Origin: Sporomusa sphaeroides DSM 2875
GTDB lineage: Bacteria > Bacillota > Negativicutes > Sporomusales > Sporomusaceae
Direction of reading: 5' to 3'
DNA: 64,000 nucleotides
Assembly (NCBI RefSeq): GCF_001941975.2
Contig: NZ_CP146991.1
Coordinates: 3,717,001-3,781,000, forward strand
Shown here: positions 3,537-63,819 of the stretch, in pieces
How the letters are laid out: each line of letters begins with the position of its first letter
Numbering within the stretch: the stretch's first letter is position 1
Program-made: the position numbers and the translations under genes
Notes under the pieces: generated by a model
What the model saw: only the letters and a program-made list of their open reading frames with translations
Told to the model about the DNA's origin: nothing
The model's database searches: none

Positions 3537-5060
3537 CTAATTTTCATAATAGACAGTCTCGGCCTTGTCCATAGCGCCATAAAATTCATCAAGCACTTCT
3601 TTGTCGGTCTCTTTGGTCATATAGCTCACCACAACCATCAGGATGGCCGAGGCAACCATGCCAAAAACGCCATACCAAACATTGCCCAGATCGTAGTGAT
3701 AGGTCAGGAGTACGCCAATAATACCGACAATTGTAGAGACTAAGGCTGCCGGTGTTGTGGCTCTGCGCCAGTAGAGTGCTGCCACCAAGACCGGGAAAAT
3801 CGGCATAACCAAAGCTATCGCAAACATAATCAAGGTCCACATCAGACTCGGGGGATTAAGCGCGATAACCAGTGCGCCGATACCCAAGGCAAAAACGGCA
3901 CCACGGGCCAACAGCATGTTCACCTTGGGACTGACATTAAGCTTGAGCAATCTGTTGAGAATATCCTCGGAAATGGTGGAACCGGCTACTAACAGGTGCG
4001 AGGTAGCAGAAGTCAGTCCTGTAGCCAGTACACCCCAGACAAAAATGCCCATCAGTACGCCGGCATAACCCATGGATTGCGTGGAAATAATTCTTTCAAT
4101 CAGGAGCGGAATGACCAACTCGGTTTCTTTGCCGCTTAAATCCGGCAGGAAGGCAATAGCCACAAAGCCGATGAACATGCATCCTGTCCAAACGATTAAC
4201 TGCAGTGCGGGCTGCATAAGCATGAGCTTGCGCTGTCCGTCCATATCCTTGCCAAAATAACCGGCCCGGATAAATACGTCAGGCAGCATGATTGTCCAGC
4301 CAATCGCGCAGGCAATGGGGTAGCCAAACCGTGCAGAGTAAGGTGCCCACTCCTTGGGTCCGGGGTACGAGAACCAGTTGTTTTGCTTCTCCCACACACT
4401 GGATATAGCCGCAAACAAATCCCCGTTAAAGCCATAGTTAAGTACACTGATACCGATAGTCCATAAGCCGATCATAAATATCCATGCCTGGACAGTAGAG
4501 ACCCACGCCACTGATTTTACACCGCCAAAAGGAATGAATATCAAAATAGCGATACCGACAAAGATGATGGCTGATGAGGCATCAATCAGCCCGCCGCTTG
4601 CCACATTCGCAGCGGTACCGCAAGCCAGGTAGGTAGCCGCCGCATAAGGCATGGAAACAGTAAAGAAAGTGACTGCCAAAATCAAACGCAAGAGAGGACT
4701 GCGGAAACGGTCCACGAAAAGATCCGCCTGGGTTGTGTAATTACGCTGCGTATTTAAGAGCCATACCTTGTTCATGACAAAGTAAGTGAAAACCGGGAAC
4801 AACGGCATATAGCTCAGCTCGGACATATAGTAAGCAAAGCCGCCCCGATAGTAGCCGCCAGGGCCGGCGAAGAACACCCAGGTGCTCATCAGGGCCCCGA
4901 TATAGGTCATGCAAAGAACAAACCAATGAATGCTGTTGGCAGCAGTATAAAACTGCCGGGCTGATTGTTTCTTCTCACGCCACCAAACATACACCCCGCA
5001 GGCGATAAGGGCGCCCAAGTAAACAATAAACAGTGCCCAGGTAGCGGTAACTGATAACAT
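3537..5060 (-). CDS. Sodium:solute symporter family transporter (SSS)
   Basis: A 507-residue protein with about 13 predicted membrane helices. It has the SSS-family landmarks: an N-terminal WWREKKQSARQFYTA segment, GGVKSVAWVSTVQAWIF in the core, and GVLATGLTSATSHLLVAGSTISEDI near helix 8. It should import an organic solute with sodium. The substrate cannot be read from sequence; the neighbours suggest a carboxylate or N-heterocycle such as nicotinate or a pathway intermediate. The gene directly follows the small membrane protein: the TAA of the small gene is immediately followed by this ATG. This resembles the DUF3311/YhdT plus symporter pairing seen in other SSS operons. Confidence 0.9.
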   Translation of the reverse strand: MLSVTATWALFIVYLGALIACGVYVWWREKKQSARQFYTAANSIHWFVLCMTYIGALMSTWVFFAGPGGYYRGGFAYYMSELSYMPLFPVFTYFVMNKVWLLNTQRNYTTQADLFVDRFRSPLLRLILAVTFFTVSMPYAAATYLACGTAANVASGGLIDASSAIIFVGIAILIFIPFGGVKSVAWVSTVQAWIFMIGLWTIGISVLNYGFNGDLFAAISSVWEKQNNWFSYPGPKEWAPYSARFGYPIACAIGWTIMLPDVFIRAGYFGKDMDGQRKLMLMQPALQLIVWTGCMFIGFVAIAFLPDLSGKETELVIPLLIERIISTQSMGYAGVLMGIFVWGVLATGLTSATSHLLVAGSTISEDILNRLLKLNVSPKVNMLLARGAVFALGIGALVIALNPPSLMWTLIMFAIALVMPIFPVLVAALYWRRATTPAALVSTIVGIIGVLLTYHYDLGNVWYGVFGMVASAILMVVVSYMTKETDKEVLDEFYGAMDKAETVYYEN

Positions 5061-5321
5061 TTATTTTTCCTCCTTGGCTGCAGCCTCTTGCGCAGCGCCT
5101 GTCATTTCCATGTTGGGATTCTTTTTCAATCTTCTCTGTTTTGTCAACAGGATCATTCCCCCGTAAGAAACTATCCAGAGCGGCAAGATTGTAAGAACGC
5201 CATGCCATAAGGCTCCGTTTGCATCGCCGTATGCCGGAACTCCTGGAATGTTATACAGGGCGTAGAAAAGAATGATTAATCCCAGCCACCATTTTTCTGT
5301 TGTTTTATATTTTTTCCCCAA
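5061..5321 (-). CDS. Small membrane protein paired with the SSS transporter (DUF3311-like)
   Basis: An 86-residue protein with two membrane helices (WWLGLIILFYALYNIPG and the GVLTILPLWIVSYGGMILL segment) and a basic then acidic C-terminal tail. The TTG at 5321 is preferred over an ATG at 5387 because a strong AAGGAGAGG site precedes it and the upstream residues look non-coding. It is translationally coupled to the symporter. Such small proteins are commonly fused to or next to SSS transporters and are thought to be accessory subunits; the role here is inferred from position. Confidence 0.75.
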   Translation of the reverse strand: MGKKYKTTEKWWLGLIILFYALYNIPGVPAYGDANGALWHGVLTILPLWIVSYGGMILLTKQRRLKKNPNMEMTGAAQEAAAKEEK

Positions 5322-5458
5322 AATGATCCTCTCCTTTTTTCTGATGCAGTAACACAGTCTAAGGTTCGTTTCATCCCCCCTTACCAATGCCGGCAGCCGT
5401 TCTGGTCATCCTCTGACAGCCAGCGCAACTCACCCTTATCTTAATCTGTTGTCTGCCA

Positions 5459-5490
5459 CTGCCGTTATTGACGACTATCCAAAACGGCAG
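5459..5490. other. Inverted repeat in the 5322-5600 intergenic region
   Basis: CTGCCGTT and AACGGCAG are separated by 16 bases. It could form a weak hairpin between the 79-residue gene and the symporter pair. There is no T-run to mark it as a terminator, and nothing else is recognisable in this 279-base gap. Confidence 0.3.
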
Positions 5491-5600
5491 CAGCGGCGAA
5501 ACCAGGTTATCTGCCTTTCACACCCTTAAACCCCCGTTTTTGACAACAGAATAATCCCATATCAAGCATTACTTCACCCATCAAACAACGGCAAAGCCTA

Positions 5601-5840
5601 TTAATGATCAGTGCTGCCAATGCCGTCGATTAATCTGCCTTTCTGTTTGGCAGCCAGGTATTTGTTCACTGCCTCTTCCACTTCCGCCCTTTTAGAGCCC
5701 GCAATATACTTGAGCTTATCTTTGCCACTTGTGGTCTTGAATGTTATGGCGGCTTGCCAATAAATGTACGTATGCTCTTTACCGTCTTTGTCTTTCCTGG
5801 TAACTGTCAGTTGGCTAATGCTGCCTTCTTTATTTTCCAT
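5601..5840 (-). CDS. Small hypothetical protein (79 residues)
   Basis: I do not recognise this protein. It is soluble, highly charged (many Lys, Asp, Glu), begins MENKEGSISQLTVTRKDKDG and ends GRLIDGIGSTDH. Beta-strand-like segments (HTYIYWQAAITFKTTSG, KLKYIAGSK) precede a helix (AEVEEAVNKYLAAKQKG). A GGGGGGA ribosome site stands before the ATG, which supports a real gene. It lies 100 bases downstream of the molybdenum hydroxylase, in the same direction, so it may be the last gene of the nicotinate operon. It might be an accessory of the hydroxylase or transporter, but nothing in the sequence proves it. Confidence 0.6.
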   Translation of the reverse strand: MENKEGSISQLTVTRKDKDGKEHTYIYWQAAITFKTTSGKDKLKYIAGSKRAEVEEAVNKYLAAKQKGRLIDGIGSTDH

Positions 5841-5941
5841 AAATTATCCCCCCTGCTTTTACGTTTCCATTAGTTGTTAAAAGCGTAAATCAATCACCGG
5901 ATTCGGGATTGCAAAAAGTATTCCCCCGGGAGGGTGAAATA

Positions 5942-8776
5942 TTAACCTTTCTTCCTTTCCAAAGCAGCCTTAATGTCTTTCATATAGTTTGCCACCGGCA
6001 AATCGTGAACACGAACGCCGATTGCATCATAAATAGCATTACAAATTGCCGGTGCCGGAGTCAGACCACCGATTTCAGCAACGCCCTTTGAGCCAAACGG
6101 TCCGGTCGGATCTTCCGCGTCAACAAATATTACCTTCATGTTCCTGGGCATATTGTCAAAACGGGGAACCTTACATTTACCCAGGCTATCGGCTACATTA
6201 ACACCGTTGACAACCTTAAAATCACTGACCAAACCGTAGTACATACCCATAATGATTGCACCCTCGATCTGGGTGGAGGCCGCCTCAGGATTGACAATCT
6301 GCCCGCCGTCGCAGGCCTCGGTTACATTCAAAACCTCAACCGCGCCAGTGGCAGGGTCGATTCTAACCACAGCGACCGTGGTATTGTACGCCACAGTATG
6401 ATGCGGCATATAATCCTTGGGATCTACTTGGCCGTCCTCGTTGGCGTTGGGCAGCACCGGGTTGCTTTTAGGCAGAGTGAAATCCACTTCGACTACCAGC
6501 GTTTCATCAGACATTTCCGCCAGCTTTGCCAAAGTCAGTTTTTCCTCCCCGGTTTCTGTTACCAGTATTTTACTGTCTTTAATGGTTAGGCTATCGGCAG
6601 GCAAGCCAAGCAGCTTAGCGCTTTTTTCCAGCAATATGGCACGGAATTGCTCCCCTGCGACAATAGTGGGATGTCCCCATAAAAACAACCCGCGCGAAGC
6701 CATTACGCCGCCGCCAAAAGGCACGTTATGAGTATCGCCGGCCAGAATGTCATAGTCGCCCCAGGCAACGCCCGTAACCTCAGAAGCCATCTGGGCCAAA
6801 GAAGTGTGTGAGCCTTGTCCCATTTCCGTGCAGGCAATCCGGTAAGAAACCCGTCCGCCAGGCATCAGTTCAAAAGCCGCTCCGGCGTTTTCTACAGGTC
6901 CCAGGCCTCCGGCCACACTGCGCCAGCCGCTGGCAACCCCGATGCCGATAAGCTCACCGGGCTTCTTTAGGGGTAACAGCATTTCATCAATCACTGTTCT
7001 CACAGTTTTCAAAGTGTTTTTGTAATCAACACCAATTTTATCTGTTAAAATCTGACCGGTGGTCATGGGCAACCCCCGTTCCAAACCATTGATCTCCCGT
7101 ATGGTCACCGGATCAATACCCAGCTTGCCGGCTACCATATCAATGATAGATTCTGCAGCAAAATGGCTTTGCAGCGCGCCGAAGCCCCGGAAAGCTCCTG
7201 ATACCAGATTATTCGTATAGACCCCGGTGCCCTTCAAATCCAGGTTAGGAATGTAATAAGGCCCGGTGCAATAAGAGATCCCCTGCTCCAGAACTCTGGG
7301 CGTCCAGGAAACATAAGCACCGGCGTCTGCCATGATATTCACCTGCATCGCCAATATTTTGCCGTCCTTGTTGGCGCCGACTTTATAAGTCATAAAGTAC
7401 GGATGCCGTTTCGGGTGAGTACGCAGCGAGTCCTTGCGTTTAAGCACCATTCTGGCCGGACGCCCGGTTTTCATTGTCGCGATAGCCACCAGAGCATGCA
7501 CCGTAAGCTCGGTTTTACCGCCAAAAGCACCGCCTGCCGGTAAATGGACAACCCGAAGCTGATCTGCCTTCAAATGGAGCACATCCATAAGCTGGACCAG
7601 ATCCGCAAACGGACTTTGATTCGGCGCATAAACAGTCAGCACATTGTTTTCATCGTAAGCGGCCAAAGCACCGTCCACTTCTATCCAGGCATGTTCCTCA
7701 GGCGGAGTGCTGAACTTTTCTTCAAGTACCACATCGCATTCAGCAAAGGCTTTTTCCACATCACCCCGGTGTAAGGCAACCTCTTTACAGATATTTCCTT
7801 TTTCGCCGGCCACATAGGCATTCCAATAAGGCGGCAGTTCCGGGTCCGGAATCAGCGGCGCATCCGGTTTGAGAGCATCCTCAATGCTGAACACTCCCGG
7901 CAGCACTTCATATTCAACCTTTACGGCTTCCGCGCCCTTTTCGGCGGCTTCTTCATTGTCGGCAAATACCACCGCCACCATATCCCCGATATACTTGACC
8001 CGTTTCTCGCACAGCACCTGCTGATCAGGAGCCAGTACGCCATACCGTTTGTTGCCCGGAACATCCTTGGCGGTAATGACCAATTGCACACCGGGAACCT
8101 GATACGCCGGCGCGGTGTCTATGGAAATCACATCAGCATGAGGATGAGGGCTGTAGACGGCTTTACCATACAGCGTATTCTCGAAATAATAATCAGCATA
8201 AAACTTGGTCTCACCGCGGACTTTTTCTTCCAGATCCACTCTGGGAATAGACTTGCCAATGAAGCTGCCCGGTTTTGACAGATCCAGGGGAACATAGTCC
8301 GGATACTCTTCGCCCCGCAATACAGCAGCGGCTTTATTAACTGCCAGAATGACCCGGGGGTATGTGCCGCAACGGCACAAGTTGAGCCGCAGGCCCTTTT
8401 TAATTTCCTCCTCGGTGGGGTTGGGATTTTTCTTTAAAAGTCCGTGAACAGCCATAATAAGCCCCGGCGTGCAAAAACCACATTGCACCGCGCTGTATTC
8501 AACAAAAGCCGCCTGCACCGGGTCTAGCCTGCCGTCCTTGGACAGCCCTTCAACGGTTGTAACCTGTTTACCCTGCATATCCTCCGCATAGAACATGCAA
8601 GAGCGTTTGGTCTCGCCGTCAATCAGCACGGTACAAGCACCGCAGGCCTTTTCCTCGCAGCCCCGTTTAGTTCCGGTCAGACCAAGGTCTTCCCTGAGAA
8701 AATCCAGCAAGCATTTTTTGCTTTGCCCAGCAGGCGTATATTGAACTTCCTGCCCATTTACGAAAAATTGTATCAT
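5942..8776 (-). CDS. Fused molybdenum hydroxylase, probable nicotinate dehydrogenase
   Basis: A 944-residue xanthine-dehydrogenase-family protein combining the iron-sulfur and molybdopterin parts in one chain. The plant-type [2Fe-2S] ligands are C40, C45, C48 and C60; the second cluster uses C99, C102, C134 and C136. The molybdopterin region carries GGAFGGKTELTVHALVA and ends with GSKGVAEIGG, where the glutamate is the expected catalytic base. The start at 8776 has GAGGAGG upstream and gives MIQFFVNGQ; the longer ORF start lacks support. In Eubacterium barkeri nicotinate dehydrogenase has four subunits (NdhF, NdhS, NdhL, NdhM). Here no FAD subunit is visible, and the Mo domain is not split. 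Position behind hnr argues for nicotinate to 6-hydroxynicotinate; E. coli XdhD has the same fused layout, so a purine substrate is possible. Confidence 0.8.
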   Translation of the reverse strand: MIQFFVNGQEVQYTPAGQSKKCLLDFLREDLGLTGTKRGCEEKACGACTVLIDGETKRSCMFYAEDMQGKQVTTVEGLSKDGRLDPVQAAFVEYSAVQCGFCTPGLIMAVHGLLKKNPNPTEEEIKKGLRLNLCRCGTYPRVILAVNKAAAVLRGEEYPDYVPLDLSKPGSFIGKSIPRVDLEEKVRGETKFYADYYFENTLYGKAVYSPHPHADVISIDTAPAYQVPGVQLVITAKDVPGNKRYGVLAPDQQVLCEKRVKYIGDMVAVVFADNEEAAEKGAEAVKVEYEVLPGVFSIEDALKPDAPLIPDPELPPYWNAYVAGEKGNICKEVALHRGDVEKAFAECDVVLEEKFSTPPEEHAWIEVDGALAAYDENNVLTVYAPNQSPFADLVQLMDVLHLKADQLRVVHLPAGGAFGGKTELTVHALVAIATMKTGRPARMVLKRKDSLRTHPKRHPYFMTYKVGANKDGKILAMQVNIMADAGAYVSWTPRVLEQGISYCTGPYYIPNLDLKGTGVYTNNLVSGAFRGFGALQSHFAAESIIDMVAGKLGIDPVTIREINGLERGLPMTTGQILTDKIGVDYKNTLKTVRTVIDEMLLPLKKPGELIGIGVASGWRSVAGGLGPVENAGAAFELMPGGRVSYRIACTEMGQGSHTSLAQMASEVTGVAWGDYDILAGDTHNVPFGGGVMASRGLFLWGHPTIVAGEQFRAILLEKSAKLLGLPADSLTIKDSKILVTETGEEKLTLAKLAEMSDETLVVEVDFTLPKSNPVLPNANEDGQVDPKDYMPHHTVAYNTTVAVVRIDPATGAVEVLNVTEACDGGQIVNPEAASTQIEGAIIMGMYYGLVSDFKVVNGVNVADSLGKCKVPRFDNMPRNMKVIFVDAEDPTGPFGSKGVAEIGGLTPAPAICNAIYDAIGVRVHDLPVANYMKDIKAALERKKG

Positions 8777-8826
8777 TAAAATACCTCCTCGTATTTTGTG
8801 CTCTGTCCTGGGTGGAAAAACGGGAG

Positions 8827-9717
8827 TTAACCTTGAGCAGCTTGCGTGCAAATCAAATCCGGAAAAATGTTTTTCATCTCATAATCCAGCATAGTTTCCT
8901 GAACTCTACAGCAGGCAGCTATTAGATTGCCTTTCTTTTTTTGCCTCACGGCTTCGCGCTTGACCTGGTTCAAAGCCTGTTTGACTTCCCTGCCGTCTAA
9001 TTTGTTCACACCGATAACAACATCCAGGTCCTTAATATCACTGCCCGGGTCGACCTGACCGGCCTTAGCAACAATAACATGCCCTGACTTGACATAAGAG
9101 CAATTTGCCAGATGTGTGGCCAGTGCATCTGCCAGGATACAGGTGGCAGAAAAGACACTTACCCCCTGGGCGATGCCGCGGGTCAGGCTTCTTCCGCCCA
9201 GACCGCTTGTGGCAACACCGCCAATGCCGTCCTCAGCACGAATGGTCAGAGAACGGTCTATCACGCCCAGTTGCAGGCTGCTCATGATTCCCAGCTTGAC
9301 TTCAGTCCCTGGCGCAAGCCGCAGAGCGACATCGCCGCCGTTGTTGACCATGGCCCGGCTTGCGCCCTGGGAAACCAGCCAGTCTGCCACCGTATCAGAG
9401 ACAGCCCCGGCAACTGTGGCCATCGGCGTCAGGGTAGGCTCACCGACAGCTAACACTCCCTCCAGCATTTTGCCAGGCAGTCCGGTCAGCAAACCGCGTT
9501 GAATCTGTTTCGGGTATAACCGCAGATAAGCCAGTGATGCCGTAATTTCCTCAAGTGCAGCGTTGATTACATCATAAGCCTCACAGCACAAGTCTGTGAG
9601 CGGACTGCCGTCCTTGTCAGCCATGACAACCATGGACGTCGGGCCGTAGTGAAAATATACTTTACCGGGCGCTAATATGCGCCATGGGTGCAAACCATTA
9701 CTATCATGCGGCATCAT
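8827..9717 (-). CDS. UPF0280 family protein (ApbE-like fold), possible Hnr flavinylation factor
   Basis: A 296-residue protein of the UPF0280 family. The core contains GVLAVGEPTLTPMATVAGAVSD, MVNNGGDVALRL and GGVATSGLGGRSLTRG, matching the ApbE superfamily, whose characterised members transfer FMN covalently to proteins. It starts at ATG 9717 (or 9714) after GGAGGGG. It lies 34 bases behind hnr and 50 bases before the hydroxylase, clearly co-transcribed. 6-Hydroxynicotinate reductase of E. barkeri was reported to hold a covalently bound flavin, so the simplest idea is that this protein attaches it. That role is inference; UPF0280 proteins have no assigned reaction that I can cite. Confidence 0.8.
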   Translation of the reverse strand: MMPHDSNGLHPWRILAPGKVYFHYGPTSMVVMADKDGSPLTDLCCEAYDVINAALEEITASLAYLRLYPKQIQRGLLTGLPGKMLEGVLAVGEPTLTPMATVAGAVSDTVADWLVSQGASRAMVNNGGDVALRLAPGTEVKLGIMSSLQLGVIDRSLTIRAEDGIGGVATSGLGGRSLTRGIAQGVSVFSATCILADALATHLANCSYVKSGHVIVAKAGQVDPGSDIKDLDVVIGVNKLDGREVKQALNQVKREAVRQKKKGNLIAACCRVQETMLDYEMKNIFPDLICTQAAQG

Positions 9718-9751
9718 AGCATCCCCTCCATTGCGTCCCTGATGAAGCAGT

Positions 9752-11332
9752 TTACGAAGAGATGGTTTTGGGACGCTCTACTTTAACAATCTTGCATTTG
9801 TTGTTTTTCATAATTTCCTCAATAGGCCGGATGGCTTCCATATACCCGCCGATTTCCTTATATGTTTCTTTGGTCATGGTGACCTCCATCGGACAGACAC
9901 TTGCCGGGGTAGGAACCCAGGCAAACGCGCCTTCAGGCATATGTTCAACCCATGCTTCTGCGGTAATGCCGCCGCCCGGGAAGATGTGAACAGGCTGACC
10001 GTTAATCGTGTACCGAATCTTGCCGGCTCTCAGCGCTTCATTGACATTACAGGAGCGTTCACGTGAAATGACGTCACGGATACCGCCGCCGAACCCGGCG
10101 ACAACCGACACATGACAGTTGCAAGGCTCACAATTATCGCGAATATACTGGATAACCTTCGCAACCTTGGGCGGTAGGGGCTTCTCGACAGGTTCCAGGT
10201 TCTCATTCAACTCAAAATATACAGCGCGCACAGCCGTCGGCTCGGTAATCACCAGGCGCAGACCGGGCCAGGCAACATTCTTGTCAATGGATTTGATGGC
10301 ATCCCTGGCTTCCATTACGTTAGAACCGCCCCAACCGCTGCCGGGAATGCCGAAATAACGCCCTGGAGAACTGTAGGTGCCTACCGGAGTAATACCGCTG
10401 TCCTTATAGCCGTAGCGCAAACCGGCGGTGGTATGGGCAGTCATCTTGGATGTAATATCATAGTCGATGGTGATAACCTCATCTACAATCTGCTCGCCCC
10501 AGCGCTCCAGCGTAAAGGTTGTGGCACCGACAGTCCCGCAGCCAATGCGCATGCGCTCTGCCTGCACGCCGTCAATAATCGGCGGCTTGCCATGCTGCAG
10601 TACCAGCTCCTTGACTGATTCGGTACGCAAGGTAACTGCTTTTTTATTGAGCAGGTCGCAGGTTGTACGCATTACCATGTGACCGCCCGGACTGGTATTA
10701 AGATGTGAACCGCCAATATAAATCATCTGTGAGCCATATTCAGCGGTGTTAATGTAACCGACAATAATGCCTTCACGTCGTACCGGTGTACCGTTATCGC
10801 CCAGAAATTCATCGGTGTCCACCTTTACGCGGGCACCATTGAAGGACAGTACCGTCTCAGTAACGCAGGATACCACTTCCACGCCATCAATGACAGCCGA
10901 AGAAATTACCTTAGCAGGCACGTCAGCGGAATAAAGGTTGGAGCCTGCGCCAAAGCCCAGCATCAGCGGAAAGGTAGGCAGCTTGGTGGACGGATCAATC
11001 GAAATGGTGGCCGGATCCACAATGTTATAGGGCTCGGTGCGCTCCAGCCTGCCATTGACATTTTGATACCGCTGGCAGGCACCCAGCCGCATTGGCGGAA
11101 TGCTGCAATGTATCGGACAGGTTTCACAGACAACGGCCTCAGGAGATGCCTGGGTTACTTCAATTGCAGCAGGCTTGCAGAGCTTGAAGCAAACGCCGCA
11201 GCCAACACACAGCTCGCCGATCGTTGCTTTTTTGTCATTGATGGCTATGGCATCTGTCGGGCAATTCTTGGCACATATTCTACAGCCGACACATTTTTCG
11301 GTTATTACCTGATATGTTTTGCTCTCGTACAT
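9752..11332 (-). CDS. hnr: 6-Hydroxynicotinate reductase
   Basis: A 526-residue iron-sulfur protein. It begins with two ferredoxin-type 4Fe-4S motifs (CVGCRICAKNCP at about residues 15-26 and CVGCGVCFKLCKP at about 42-54). A further cysteine group (CETCPIHCSIPPMRLGAC) follows, then a long domain with FGAGSNLYSAD, GGSHLNTSPGGH and the C-terminal GFGGGIRDVISRE. This is the layout of Hnr, which reduces 6-hydroxynicotinate to 1,4,5,6-tetrahydro-6-oxonicotinate, and in E. barkeri has iron-sulfur clusters and covalent flavin. The start at 11332 follows AAGGGGAGC. It sits between the transporter and the UPF0280 gene in the mgm operon. The neighbourhood of all later pathway enzymes makes the assignment strong. 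Confidence 0.9.
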   Translation of the reverse strand: MYESKTYQVITEKCVGCRICAKNCPTDAIAINDKKATIGELCVGCGVCFKLCKPAAIEVTQASPEAVVCETCPIHCSIPPMRLGACQRYQNVNGRLERTEPYNIVDPATISIDPSTKLPTFPLMLGFGAGSNLYSADVPAKVISSAVIDGVEVVSCVTETVLSFNGARVKVDTDEFLGDNGTPVRREGIIVGYINTAEYGSQMIYIGGSHLNTSPGGHMVMRTTCDLLNKKAVTLRTESVKELVLQHGKPPIIDGVQAERMRIGCGTVGATTFTLERWGEQIVDEVITIDYDITSKMTAHTTAGLRYGYKDSGITPVGTYSSPGRYFGIPGSGWGGSNVMEARDAIKSIDKNVAWPGLRLVITEPTAVRAVYFELNENLEPVEKPLPPKVAKVIQYIRDNCEPCNCHVSVVAGFGGGIRDVISRERSCNVNEALRAGKIRYTINGQPVHIFPGGGITAEAWVEHMPEGAFAWVPTPASVCPMEVTMTKETYKEIGGYMEAIRPIEEIMKNNKCKIVKVERPKTISS

Positions 11333-59091: not shown

Positions 59092-59121
59092 ATCCGGAAC
59101 CTTAAGCGCAAGGTTCCGGAT
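59092..59121 (-). terminator. Terminator of the hydrogenase-like chemoreceptor gene
   Basis: ATCCGGAACCTT and complement (12-bp perfect arms) with a 6-base loop, followed on the minus strand by TTCTTTTCTTTC. It lies 18 bases past the stop. Confidence 0.88.
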
Positions 59122-59138: not shown

Positions 59139-61037
59139 TTATCTCAGCATTGCCGTTGTTGCGGCAATCTCCTGGCATTTGGCAGTTACCTGCTGCACAG
59201 TTGCTGAGATATTGGTAATTTCATTATTGACGGTTTCCATCTTCTGTTCCAAATCATCGGAAATACTGATGATTTTAGCCACCTGCTGCCTGATATCGCC
59301 TTCACTGCTTTTAGTCGAGGTAACCACCGTTTTGGTTCTGTCCGCCAGTACGCCAACCTCGTTAGCCACAACGGCAAAGCCTTTGCCCTGCTCACCAGCC
59401 CGCGCCGCTTCAATTCTGGCATTCAGCGACAAAAGATTAGTCTGACCGGCGATACCCACAATTTCGTCTGATGCTTGAGTGAATTCAGTCAGTTTGGTTT
59501 CCACTTCATAGACACTGTCTCTCAGCTCGGTGGCTGTTTTGAAGATATAATGCACTTCCCCGCTGATGTTCTCAATACTCTTGGCATTTTCACTGCTGCC
59601 CAGCGAAACTTCATTGATGGCGTCAAGGATATCCTTTACCCGCTCACGGAGTTCCTGACCGGAACGTTCACGCTCTTCCGCCAGGGTCTTGGTCTTAACC
59701 AGCATGTCCTGAACTTCCTCGGTGCTCTTCGCCAGCAGTTTTTTCTCGATTTCCACTTCTTTGCGGTTAAAGTCAATACAGTTTTCCACATGATTGATGC
59801 CTTGCTCCACAGCGGCGGCAAAATCACGGCAATTGCCAAAGCCGCAGGCATAGCAGTTGACACTGCGTGAGGCCTCGTCCGGTTTATGCAGTTTGGCAAA
59901 AACAGGCTCCAGCGCCTGCGCATTTGCCGCAGCCGTGGCAACCGACTTATTCTCATACCGGCGGACAAAATCCGTTAGCCGCAGCTCTTTGTCAAACTGC
60001 TCAAATAAAGCGTAGGCTTTCTTAAACAGCTTATGTTTGCTCTGCTCTTTTATCTTGGCTTGTTTAAGCTCATTCATTTTATAGTCGATATCATCAATAG
60101 CAATAGCCTTATTGGTGCCTGTGCCAATATTACAGCCGCACAGGCAGTTAAGCACATCGACAAGCAGCGGGACAGGCTTACCCTGCCGGTTGCGCCGGGC
60201 ATATTCATCCAAATAATGATACACATGCCCCGGCCCTTCAATTTGCCGTATCCAGGCATCCTTGACATGGAATTCAACATTTTCCCTGAGACCGCCCGGC
60301 CGGCTGAAGGTCAAGCCCAAACCACAGCCTGCGTCTTCAAAGTCGGCTTCCTGATAATTAGCCAGGTTAATTCCGTTTTTCTCCAGATACTGCTCCAGTT
60401 TGGCATAAGTTACATTATAATGCACTAAGCCGTTGGTGTTTTTTTCATGAATCTCATCAATTTTACCGATACAGGGTGATAAAAATGCCAGCTTGTCTTG
60501 GACATTCTTATATTGTTTCAAGTAAACAGCCGTACACATCATGGGACTGTGAATGGGCGCCAGACTGTTTATAAGTTCAGGCCGGAATTTCTGGACATAG
60601 TTGACAATTGCCGGACAGGGCTGGGCAATCACCGAACGCAGCTGTTGTTCTCTGATGGCTTTCAGATAGGCCCAGGTGGTAATGTCGGCGCCAAAGGATA
60701 CATCATAAATCACCTTGACCCCCAAGGATTTAAGATACCCAAACAAGCGTTTATAATTGCCAAAATTAAAACGCACAGCCGGTGCGGCAATGACCGAGAT
60801 GCTTGTCCCTTGCTTGAGCTCGGCAAAAAAGCGCTCCGTATCGTCGGTAAAATCCCTGGCCTTATGATCACACACATCCAGGCATTCCCCACAGTGAATA
60901 CAGCGTTCCTGATCCACCCTGACCTTGTTTTCCCCATTAAGTTCATAAGCGATATTGGCTTTTGTCGGACATTTGGCTATACACTTGTTGCAGCCGGCAC
61001 ACAGTTCTTCCCTGGTTAATAAAATGTCTTTACTCAA
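59139..61037 (-). CDS. Soluble hydrogenase-like iron-sulfur sensor fused to a chemoreceptor signalling domain
   Basis: A 632-residue protein with no membrane helix. Two 4Fe-4S ferredoxin motifs (C13/16/19/23 and C46/49/52/56) are followed by an [FeFe]-hydrogenase C-terminal-like domain ([36 protein letters not shown]). A four-cysteine Fe-S motif ([12 protein letters not shown]...ENC) and a coiled coil follow. It ends with the chemoreceptor tip [37 protein letters not shown]. The cluster-ligand cysteines appear kept, but proline stands where active enzymes have the proton-transfer cysteine (TSCCP to QPCP). It likely senses hydrogen or redox state. TTG 61037 follows CAGGTGA; the longer start is weaker. 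Confidence 0.88.
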
Positions 61038-61251
61038 AACAATCACCTGCGAGTACGTTATTTTTATCACTATTGCACTGTTATTATATTACAGCAAGAT
61101 TCGTAAGTCAAAGTATACATTTCTGCAAATTGCGACAATTCTTATTTTTTAGTTACCTCAAGATTGACTGATATACAATTTCTATATTTCGCCAATTTTC
61201 TCAAGGATTCTGACGAATGACCGCGAATAGAAGCATATTGAGGTGTTATGA

Positions 61252-63819
61252 ATGACAGATATAGTAATTGCACTCCTGCAATTATTAGAGAATATCGGCG
61301 CTATGGCGGCCATCCTTTTGCTGTTTTTACATTGGTTTCCTCTGGCAATTTACCGTACAACCACCAGAATCAATTTTCCCGGGCTGCTCCTTTTTTCGCT
61401 GCTGGCCCTTATTGCCGCCATCCCTCTATTGGCGAAAGAAAGCTTTGGCGCAAACCTCAGCATGGTTGCTGTCTTGCTGACAGCTGTGCATGTCGGGCTA
61501 ATTGAAGCCGCGCTGGTCGGCCTAACCACCACTGCCATTTTCCTGGCCATTGGCAGTGTCGACTGGGTTCCCTGGGCAATGGGCTCGCCCTTTTGCGGAC
61601 TCATTACAGCCTGTATGCTCAAACGCTTCGGCAACCGGCTTACCTGCCGGAAGCTGGGACAGGCAGCCCTGTTTGCCTGCCTGTGTTCACTGGCCTATGT
61701 ATATCTTTCTTTTCCGGCAATAAACGGCGGCACAGTCCTGAATTCCTGGGGCTATATTTTTCTGTTCATAATTATCGGCCATATCGCCGGCACAATACTA
61801 TTGCACCGGCTGATTATCTATCTGCAAAGCCATCAAAGCTTTACTGAATTGCTGGCCGAAGCCGAAGTCAAATACCGCAGTTTAGTGGAAAGCTCACTGA
61901 CAGGTATTTATGTTATTCAAGGCAGCAAACTGGTATATGTCAGCCAGGGCTTTACTGCTATCACCGGGTACTCCCGCGCGCAGCTGCTGGCCATCACCAA
62001 CGTATATGACTATATCCACCCGGATGACAGGGCGTCAGTGCATAAAATTATCCACCAAAAACTAACCAATCAGACGGCGCCTGTCACCTATGAGCTCAGA
62101 TTATTGTCACAGGCAGGCGGCCTCCGCTATGTAAAGGTCCAGAGCAGTTACTTTGAAATCGGCGGCAAGCCGGCCATCATTGGCACAATGACCGACATCA
62201 ACGAATGCAAGCAGGCTCAGCAGGCATTGTGTGAAAGCCAGGAGTTATTCCGCTACCTGGCCAACCATATCCCCTTCATGGTGTGGATGGAGGACCGGGA
62301 AAGCCGCTGCGTGTTTGTCAATAAACAGTGGCAGGAATATACCGGCCTGACCTGGGAAGAAGGCAGCGATATCTCCTGGGACTGCCGCCTTCATCCCCAG
62401 GAGAAGCACCCCGACAAACCGCTTAACCGGGAAAAATTTGACTATGAATGCCGGATGCTGCGCCATGACGGCGAATACCGCTGGGTTCAGCTTATCGGTA
62501 TCCCCCGGCAGACCCCGGATGGCTCCTTTGCCGGGTATATTGGCTGCTGCCTGGATATTCACGACAGCAAGGAAGCCGATAAGGCATTGCAGCGCTCCTA
62601 CCGGCGGCTGGAAAAAAACATCGAAGAGCAAACCCGCCAGTTGGCTAATGCAAATGCTACACTGGCTCAGGAAATATTTACGAGAAGAGCTGTGGAAAAG
62701 CGTTACCGTCAATTGTTTGACAGTGTGCAGGATTCCATTTTTGTTTGGAAAATCACTCCCCAGGGCCTGCCCGGACGAATTATCGAAGTAAATGATATTG
62801 CCTGCCGCCGGCTGGGCTATAGCCGCGATGAACTCTTATCCTTGTCGATGCTGGATACCATGTCAGGCCAGGGAAAGGCTGCTGCCACCTCACACATGGA
62901 GAAATTACTGACCTCACGGCAGGCTATTTTTGAATTTGATCATTTAACCAAGGACCAAAGACCCATCCCCTCGGAGGTGAATGCGCACATATTTGCCCTT
63001 AACGAGGAGCTTGTCGGGCTCTGCATTTCCCGCGACATCTCTGACCGGAAAGAGGCTGAGGCTGAACTCTCGGCTGCCAGAAACAGAATCAGCCGGACCG
63101 AAAAACTGGCCTTTTTAGGCAATATGGCGGCAGGCATTGCCCATGAAATTAATCAGCCGCTCAATTCCATCAAAGTAACTGCCGACAGTATCTTAATGTG
63201 GTACAAGGAAGGGCAGACCTACCAGGTGGAAGAGTTCCTGGAAGATGTGCAGACCATCTCCGAACAGTCGGCCAGAATCGCCAATATCATCAATTATATC
63301 CGCGACCTCATCCGCACCAGCCAGCAAAGCACCAATCAAAGTTTCAGCCTCACCGGCGCCATCACCAATGCAGTCAAAATGACCTTTTCCCAAGCAGGCG
63401 CGGCCGATATATCCCTGACGCTGAAGCTTGCCGAAGATCCGCTGGAAATGTACGGCTCACTGGCACATATGGAGCATGTTTTTCTCAATCTGATAAGTAA
63501 TGCCATCGACGCCCTGACCGGTTTAGAGCAACCGGTAAAAGAGATTGAAATCGAAACACTGCTGCACGATAAAATCATTGTGCAGATTTCCGATAATGGC
63601 ACAGGCATTACTGAAGAACTGCGCAAAAGAATATTCACCCCGTTTTTTTCAACCAAAAACAATGGAATGGGGCTGGGACTGGCTATTGTCAAATCGGTGG
63701 TTACCTCTCACGGCGGCCAGATAACCATTATGAATAATGAGCGCGGCGGGGCCACCTTCCGGCTGGCCTTTCCCCTGATTGAAGCATCGGATAACCTAAA
63801 AGAGGAGGATGCCTGTTGA
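61252..63819 (+). CDS. Membrane-bound PAS sensor histidine kinase
   Basis: An 855-residue kinase. The first about 190 residues hold several membrane helices resembling the 5TM-LYT type of sensor. Three PAS domains follow (ESSLTGIYVIQGSKLVYVSQG; LANHIPFMVWMEDRESRCVFV; LFDSVQDSIFVWKI), with a coiled coil before the third. The phosphoacceptor is H631 in AAGIAHEINQPLNSIK. The ATP domain has LISNAIDAL, ISDNGTGITEEL and STKNNGMGLGLAIVKS. The HEINQPL form belongs to the NtrB/DctB-like kinases that often act with sigma-54 response regulators. The stop overlaps the response-regulator start. The signal is unknown. Confidence 0.92.
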   Translation: MTDIVIALLQLLENIGAMAAILLLFLHWFPLAIYRTTTRINFPGLLLFSLLALIAAIPLLAKESFGANLSMVAVLLTAVHVGLIEAALVGLTTTAIFLAIGSVDWVPWAMGSPFCGLITACMLKRFGNRLTCRKLGQAALFACLCSLAYVYLSFPAINGGTVLNSWGYIFLFIIIGHIAGTILLHRLIIYLQSHQSFTELLAEAEVKYRSLVESSLTGIYVIQGSKLVYVSQGFTAITGYSRAQLLAITNVYDYIHPDDRASVHKIIHQKLTNQTAPVTYELRLLSQAGGLRYVKVQSSYFEIGGKPAIIGTMTDINECKQAQQALCESQELFRYLANHIPFMVWMEDRESRCVFVNKQWQEYTGLTWEEGSDISWDCRLHPQEKHPDKPLNREKFDYECRMLRHDGEYRWVQLIGIPRQTPDGSFAGYIGCCLDIHDSKEADKALQRSYRRLEKNIEEQTRQLANANATLAQEIFTRRAVEKRYRQLFDSVQDSIFVWKITPQGLPGRIIEVNDIACRRLGYSRDELLSLSMLDTMSGQGKAAATSHMEKLLTSRQAIFEFDHLTKDQRPIPSEVNAHIFALNEELVGLCISRDISDRKEAEAELSAARNRISRTEKLAFLGNMAAGIAHEINQPLNSIKVTADSILMWYKEGQTYQVEEFLEDVQTISEQSARIANIINYIRDLIRTSQQSTNQSFSLTGAITNAVKMTFSQAGAADISLTLKLAEDPLEMYGSLAHMEHVFLNLISNAIDALTGLEQPVKEIEIETLLHDKIIVQISDNGTGITEELRKRIFTPFFSTKNNGMGLGLAIVKSVVTSHGGQITIMNNERGGATFRLAFPLIEASDNLKEEDAC

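Follow-up and report, generated by a model that had tools for sequence, protein, structure and literature searches.

HemAT is a soluble chemoreceptor that uses a haem globin for O2. The protein described here, from Sporomusa sphaeroides DSM 2875, resembles HemAT in that a cytoplasmic sensor with a predicted cofactor is mounted on a chemoreceptor hairpin, and differs in its putative H-cluster-type iron centre. A pairing of this sort was entered in HydDB in 2016 as [FeFe] group C2, "Chemotactic (putative)", its role being described as undetermined and possibly H2 sensing (Sondergaard et al. 2016, PMC5037454). Like members of group C2, the Sporomusa protein combines kinship to [FeFe]-hydrogenases with a link to methyl-accepting chemotaxis proteins (MCPs); unlike the HydDB entry, a sequence-cluster class for which the accessible part of the source gives no active-site residues, the present description adds a proline signature and output swaps. 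Judged by domain pairing (the HydDB class is one of sequence clusters), the kind appears to be already in print as C2, and the protein would be a new, Sporomusa-type member. An acetogen survey covering C. ljungdahlii and C. ragsdalei reported C2 matches, without naming the species in the part available (PMC9431212); fusions from these two organisms (L129, L130) fall in the same clade as the Sporomusa protein.

TamHydS (group D, Thermoanaerobacter mathranii) shares with the Sporomusa protein two N-terminal clusters, the lack of C299 (CpI numbering), leucine and serine at the positions of M497 and M353, respectively, and a C-terminal Cx2Cx4Cx16C motif (PMC8163306), but has no signalling domain. 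In TmHydS (group C, Thermotoga maritima, PAS-linked), Fer4, H-domain, FeS motif, and signalling domain follow one another as they do here; TmHydS differs in its PAS output and in having serine and glycine at the two methionine positions (PMC8163306). That groups C and D lack C299 has been published, and this lack is presumed to be linked to a stabilized reduced state, and loss of C299 together with both methionines is known for sensory enzymes of these groups (PMC8163306). In Morra's review, the sensory role is called putative (PMC8924675).

H2 is a main currency of anaerobic communities. The archaeon Methanococcus maripaludis is reported to move towards H2 (Brileya et al. 2013, cited in PMC4266047), and the same behaviour is suspected in a sulfate reducer (PMC12004927); the accessible portions of these two sources name no receptor for it. 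A search of the open-access literature returned no paper containing both "chemoreceptor" and "FeFe hydrogenase". No H2 chemoreceptor protein is described in the available parts of PMC9431212, PMC13104023, PMC5037454, PMC12456013, PMC12578642, PMC8163306, PMC8924675, PMC4342158, PMC4266047, PMC12004927, and PMC10787695. The same portions contain neither a fusion of an [FeFe] domain to GGDEF or to a sigma-54 activator, which a subscription paper may hold, nor a family-wide proline signature.

The gene lies in a window of 64,000 nucleotides, part of the 5.0 Mb genome of a presumed acetogen. Its longest open reading frame form starts at GTG 61070 and encodes 643 residues; residue numbers refer to this frame, and those of the preferred TTG form are lower by 11. 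The features, in window coordinates, are as follows.

61083 to 61111, minus strand: sigma-70-like promoter TTGACT-17-TATAAT, an 11/12 consensus match only, the best in the stretch
61043 to 61048, minus strand: Shine-Dalgarno-like AGGTGA, 5 bases 5′ of the TTG, read by eye
59139 to 61037, minus strand: H-domain/chemoreceptor fusion gene, TTG start, 632 aa
60870 to 61001, minus strand: two 4Fe-4S ferredoxin motifs (C24, C27, C30, C34 and C57, C60, C63, C67)
60123 to 60800, minus strand: [FeFe]-hydrogenase H-domain (PF02906)
60612 to 60629, minus strand: L1 motif IAQPCP, with the C300-type ligand C152 and proline at the C299 position
60453 to 60479, minus strand: L2 motif, with the C355-type ligand C200, the K358-type K203, and serine for M353
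60132 to 60152, minus strand: L3 motif LNCLCGC, with the C499- and C503-type ligands C309 and C313 and leucine for M497
59778 to 59855, minus strand: C-terminal Fe-S motif Cx2Cx4Cx16C (C406, C409, C414, C431; PF04060)
59145 to 59777, minus strand: output hairpin of helix 432-557, a turn near 558, and helix 559-642 (AlphaFold2, pLDDT 72-92 here; MCPsignal)
59358 to 59444, minus strand: chemoreceptor tip
59190 to 59195, minus strand: possible methylation pair Q626 Q627 close to the end of the C arm
59092 to 59121, minus strand: terminator-like hairpin, a 13-pair stem with 6 G-C, followed by TCTTTTCTTT

The TTG at 61037, the gene end given in the original prediction, appears to fit better as the start than GTG 61070, because of the spacing of AGGTGA, because orthologues start at most one residue from this site (ATG in L014, L017, and L018; GTG in L016), and because a start at GTG 61070 would leave almost no leader behind the promoter at 61111-61083. 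Promoter-like sites number 7 in the stretch versus 3.4 in shuffles, and terminator-like sites 4 versus 2.7, the stem at 59092-59121 being the longest by far. Since the near-consensus promoter and the terminator-like hairpin flank it, the gene looks monocistronic. Cotranscription with the permease and S58 peptidase genes downstream was considered and is unlikely, given the strong terminator-like hairpin after the stop codon.

A multi-PAS histidine kinase is encoded divergently at 61252-63819 on the plus strand, followed by a response-regulator-like frame (by eye, L055). In G004 (L054), a kinase look-alike, again identified by eye, is likewise transcribed divergently from the orthologue; none was seen upstream of the orthologues in L050-L053, so a functional tie between the fusion gene and the kinase appears weak. 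Chance or misassembly was rejected as the origin of the fusion, as orthologues of the same layout are present in five of eight congeners (G001, G004, G005, G006, and G008) and in G033. Among the other congeners, G002 (58% complete) has only a contig-edge piece covering residues 596-642 (83%), G003 has a truncated relative, and G007 has no close match (best E 2.5e-22).

In a single open reading frame, PF02906 is joined to PF00015, linking the H-domain to a methyl-accepting chemotaxis protein domain. The Pfam order is Fer4_10 at 21-67 (1.2e-9), Fe_hyd_lg_C at 91-316 (2.9e-29), FeS at 405-432 (5.1e-6), and MCPsignal at 518-638 (3.4e-24). The original prediction, made from the sequence, had proposed two ferredoxin motifs, an [FeFe]-hydrogenase-type H-cluster domain, a further Fe-S motif, and a chemoreceptor signalling hairpin, with no membrane segment, and each of these elements was recovered. 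The eight ferredoxin cysteines are invariant in 67/67 chemoreceptor fusions of the alignment (from 70 candidates, L063, L144, and L149 were left out), as are the cluster cysteines as a whole, 16 in number, down to 32% identity. The Cx2Cx4Cx16C motif has been reported for M2e/M2f enzymes (PMC8163306). No membrane segment was found in the protein, the best 19-residue Kyte-Doolittle mean (1.36) lying inside L3.

The AlphaFold2 model, built with 67 of the family's own sequences as input, has a mean pLDDT of 87.7 and a pTM of 0.70. Its residues 10-375 superpose on holo CbA5H (8zqd) with Z 39.4 over 347 aligned residues at 2.7 Å, and residues 12-378 on CpI (4xdc) with Z 36.1. The model matches HydA2 of the CO2 reductase (7qv7) with Z 35.9; the fold also matches DdH, and the best Foldseek E is 1.3e-18. 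As modelled, the H-domain has the hydrogenase fold, and the output region is a hairpin of two helices joined by a turn. C431, the final ligand in the C-terminal cluster, stands one residue before the output helix. Because of this adjacency, and because the other outputs of relatives follow the same motif, the Fe-S cluster domain is, on the model and the alignments, the joint of sensor and output.

The ligand set of the H-cluster is intact. The absence of H-cluster ligands would have refuted the original prediction; looked for in both sequence and fold, the ligands are present, and the prediction was not refuted: C300, C355, C499, C503, K358, and E361 are kept in 120/120 family rows, 4 of which are without the N-terminal ferredoxin part. 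In known enzymes, C503 bridges to the [2Fe] site and K358 hydrogen-bonds it. The second sphere is altered. The proton-transfer cysteine of prototypical group A enzymes, C299, is replaced by proline in 120/120 rows, position 298 is glutamine in 116/120, position 353 is serine in 115/120 and glycine in 5, and position 497 is leucine in 120/120. The original prediction had noted the proline in place of cysteine as an alteration of this protein; the substitution stands (AQPCP in L1), but it belongs to the whole family and not to one protein. The proline counts are biased for the 80 named loci, which were picked by peptide patterns including IAQPCP. Another 40 loci, from a profile search run without the IAQPCP filter, all have proline at 299, although every row of that profile has QPCP and some of the 40 are re-finds. 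Truncated relatives also have the proline (4/4).

Related H-domain proteins differ at this position. The PAS-like relatives (19 rows, L009 and L023-L040, labelled by eye; same class and order) form a separate clade and, unlike published group C, retain C299 in 18/19 rows. The group-D-like rows L010, L041, and L042, so labelled by architecture, have alanine at 299 (3/3) and threonine at 353 and also form a separate clade; the family and group-D-like clades separate with SH-aLRT values of 99 and 100 in a rapidly built tree, flagged for long branches and without TamHydS among its rows. In the group-A proteins of the Sporomusa genome itself (L001-L004), L1 reads TSCSP, which puts a serine in the alignment column of the C300 ligand. 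Two of these group-A genes, L002 and L003 (G000:C1:1578392 and 847398), have identical 599-aa frames in the same genome, a recent duplication.

TamHydS, with leucine and serine at the two methionine positions and without C299, binds a synthetic subsite and works slowly (PMC8163306). Because the family has the same methionine replacements, an H-cluster in the fusion proteins is plausible and slow chemistry of their H-domain is expected by analogy. The preferred reading, to which a probability of roughly two in three is assigned, is that the Sporomusa protein is a cytoplasmic chemoreceptor of the HydDB group C2 type, whose sensing part would be a catalytically slowed [FeFe]-hydrogenase domain responding to H2 or to low-potential redox conditions. 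The original prediction, a hydrogen or redox sensor addressing another kinase or the machinery of chemotaxis, is thereby supported by the fold, the ligands, the swappable outputs, and the chemoreceptor tip, as well as by the 51 MCP domains, 2 CheA, and 1 CheR of the genome and by relatives beside CheA-type kinases. That hydrogen is the signal is what we infer.

To our knowledge, no member of the sub-family has been purified. In the mechanism proposed, HydEFG would load the H-cluster into the H-domain, where H2 would bind and be split. With the proton exit of C299 replaced by proline, the reduced state would persist without turnover. Electrons or a shape change would then pass to the C-terminal Fe-S domain, and from there, by way of the output helix that begins right after C431, the hairpin would be tilted or twisted such that the activity of a CheA-type kinase is altered. 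The outcome would be attraction to, or repulsion by, H2 or the accompanying low-potential redox state. In TamHydS, H2 at 1 atm does not reduce the C-terminal cluster (PMC13104023), which by analogy argues against electron transfer to this cluster as the signal; the signal may for this reason be conformational.

The main rival to hydrogen as the signal is a pure redox sensor. In such a protein the H-domain would hold its [4Fe-4S] cluster only, without a [2Fe] subsite, and the three accessory clusters would report ferredoxin potential or oxidant damage. This is considered unlikely, though it has several observations on its side: the proline at 299, serine at 353, and leucine at 497 strip away the usual second sphere, and some carriers have no detectable HydF or HydG. 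Against it stand the retention of C503 and K358 in 120/120 rows and the activity of TamHydS once it has taken up the synthetic subsite (PMC8163306).

The distribution of maturation genes bears on the same question. The Sporomusa genome has HydF and HydG. Across 398 genomes of the phylum, of which 38 carry the module at E ≤1e-70 (including G353, with a truncated relative only, and G233, with a 203-aa fragment), HydF at E ≤1e-60 is found in 29/38 carriers versus 197/360 others (Fisher p 0.015, uncorrected for kinship), a modest excess that supports a mature H-cluster weakly. HydF was not found at this threshold in 9/38 carriers, and HydG is over the cut-off in 0/9 of those. Eight of the nine still have catalytic-score H-domains, so the missing HydF genes are likely gaps. 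The 80 named loci give 50 carrier genomes, 43 of which have HydF over the cut-off (two of the other seven have fragments). A catalytic-score H-domain is present as well in 49 of the 50, which speaks against the redox sensor; in its favour, G375, the ninth of the carriers that lack HydF, has the module alone with no other H-domain. Among carriers, HydF without a catalytic hydrogenase seems to occur only in G057, a MAG with a best H-domain E of 1.7e-42 and HydF at 1.2e-144. Group C and D genes often share operons with group A hydrogenases (PMC8163306). Another H-domain match (E ≤1e-15, searched from the true gene ends with ten own-genome proteins, which did not include L006 and L011) lies in the flanks of only 2/80 loci, some of which have short flanks owing to their contigs, and this scarcity again suits the redox sensor.

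Returning to the hydrogenase-derived receptor, its input module is found well beyond Sporomusa. A pattern search of the genome collection gave at least 589 stretches, at least 515 of which encode a relative, and 80 loci were kept. Among the matches listed, relatives of the module occur in Bacillota, Spirochaetota, Alphaproteobacteria, Melainabacteria/Cyanobacteriota, and Calditrichales. The Pfam outputs of 119 distinct tails, where one tail can match several domains, are MCPsignal (85), HATPase_c (16), GGDEF (9, with EAL in 4), Sigma54_activat with a Fis-type HTH (8), CheX (3), and SpoIIE (1). A quick tree of 153 rows, flagged for its long branches, places all 124 module rows in a single clade (SH-aLRT 99) to which none of the PAS-like, group-D-like, A, and B reference rows belongs; these reference rows were labelled by eye from architecture and motifs. 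Left out of the tree were 22 loci with modules identical to a kept one, modules shorter than 300 aa, and L003.

The output labels on the tree are MCP with 13 changes, HK with 7, DGC with 2, and sigma-54 with 1. The outputs were swapped about a dozen times; the 15 label changes are an upper count, as L150 and L153 (labelled "oth") look like missed MCP and as rows that are truncated or interrupted were scored as one more output. Because outputs have been exchanged repeatedly on a conserved input, the sequences indicate that the input module acts as a sensor. A hydrogenase of low turnover, its receptor tail vestigial or just a scaffold, would account for the complete ligand set of the cofactor but is very improbable, in that the proton-exit cysteine is missing in all 120 rows, five unrelated kinds of output follow the same Fe-S motif, and the chemoreceptor tip is conserved.

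In the MCP signalling domain, which by sequence is present with its conserved tip, L549, N550, A551, E554, G562, and A569 are invariant in 67/67 fusions, and Q543, N545, and R557 are kept in 65/67, 62/67, and 60/67, respectively. Glutamate or glutamine occupies position 626 in 65/67 and position 627 in 50/67. This pair sits among small residues, and we take it to resemble the methylation-site consensus. A conserved tip and a retained methylation-like pair suggest an ordinary array with CheR adaptation. The alternative is a hairpin outside the flagellar array, which would drive another CheA-type pathway (gene expression, pili, or c-di-GMP) or act alone. This is possible, though on balance doubtful. 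The two CheA of the genome fit it, as do the short C-terminal arm (84 residues), the score of the fusion's MCP domain, the lowest of the 51 in the genome (E ≤1e-10), and the kinases, cyclases, and sigma-54 activators among the other outputs of the family.

Further observations on this alternative come from gene neighbourhoods. In L071, L078, and L079, the next gene downstream encodes an Hpt-dimerisation-HATPase-CheW-receiver protein, a CheA hybrid (L071:7198-10281, L078:7274-10219, and L079:2850-6041). In L084, the receptor gene is followed by the start of such a CheA gene, which the contig end cuts short (L084:5564-5896). All four CheA neighbours are in a five-row clade of long-hairpin receptors (L071, L078, L079, L084, and L122), not of the short-hairpin type found in the window. 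These adjacent CheA-type genes favour a non-flagellar role, but CheA-like matches adjoin only 4/80 loci. The long-hairpin receptors and their downstream CheA hybrids probably form a dedicated chemosensory pathway, and the neighbours would tie forms of the receptor to CheA pathways that are not necessarily flagellar. The L124 fusion lies beside a CheW-receiver (CheV-like) gene.

A broader proposal extends the preferred reading to the whole family: its members, widespread and of a single origin, would be H2 receptors that share a Q-P-C-P signature (C299P, S298Q, M353S, and M497L) and feed many bacterial signalling outputs (chemoreceptor, histidine kinase, c-di-GMP cyclase/phosphodiesterase, sigma-54 activator, and phosphatase). 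The proline would block proton exit and so make a receptor, and the chemoreceptor form would supply the receptor that hydrogen taxis of anaerobic bacteria still lacks. This proposal is tentative and is held at a little under even odds. If it holds, the family could show one residue turning a catalyst into a receptor. The invariant active-site change, the compact soluble receptor, and the relatives beside CheA make the question of an H2 receptor directly testable.

Other forms of the module were also observed. Eight fusions (L159, L160, L162, L164, L165, L167, L172, and L174) join the H-domain module to a PAS-like domain, a sigma-54 AAA+ domain, and a Fis-type HTH, and are predicted to be one-component transcription activators with an H-cluster-type input. 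Truncated relatives of 366-415 aa, without the FeS motif or an output, occur in L047:2975-4150 (G000:C1:4036974-4038149), L048, L049, and L175. The L047 gene is beside a TonB-dependent receptor (Pfam) and small proteins without Pfam matches, as are, by eye, those of L048 and L049; this adjacency suggests a separate, perhaps metal-related, role. A Desulfosporosinus contig (L119) encodes two nearby modules, at 8290-11247 (minus strand) and 4971-6863 (plus strand), one with a chemoreceptor output and one with a histidine kinase output. In L043, upstream of 2365 (G033:C41, a MAG), a GGDEF-EAL form has an in-frame TGA in the ferredoxin region, possibly due to recoding, decay, or sequencing error. 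In two Spirochaetales MAGs (L093 and L098), a ketol-acid-reductoisomerase-like gene, identified by eye, lies 35-102 bp upstream of the module.
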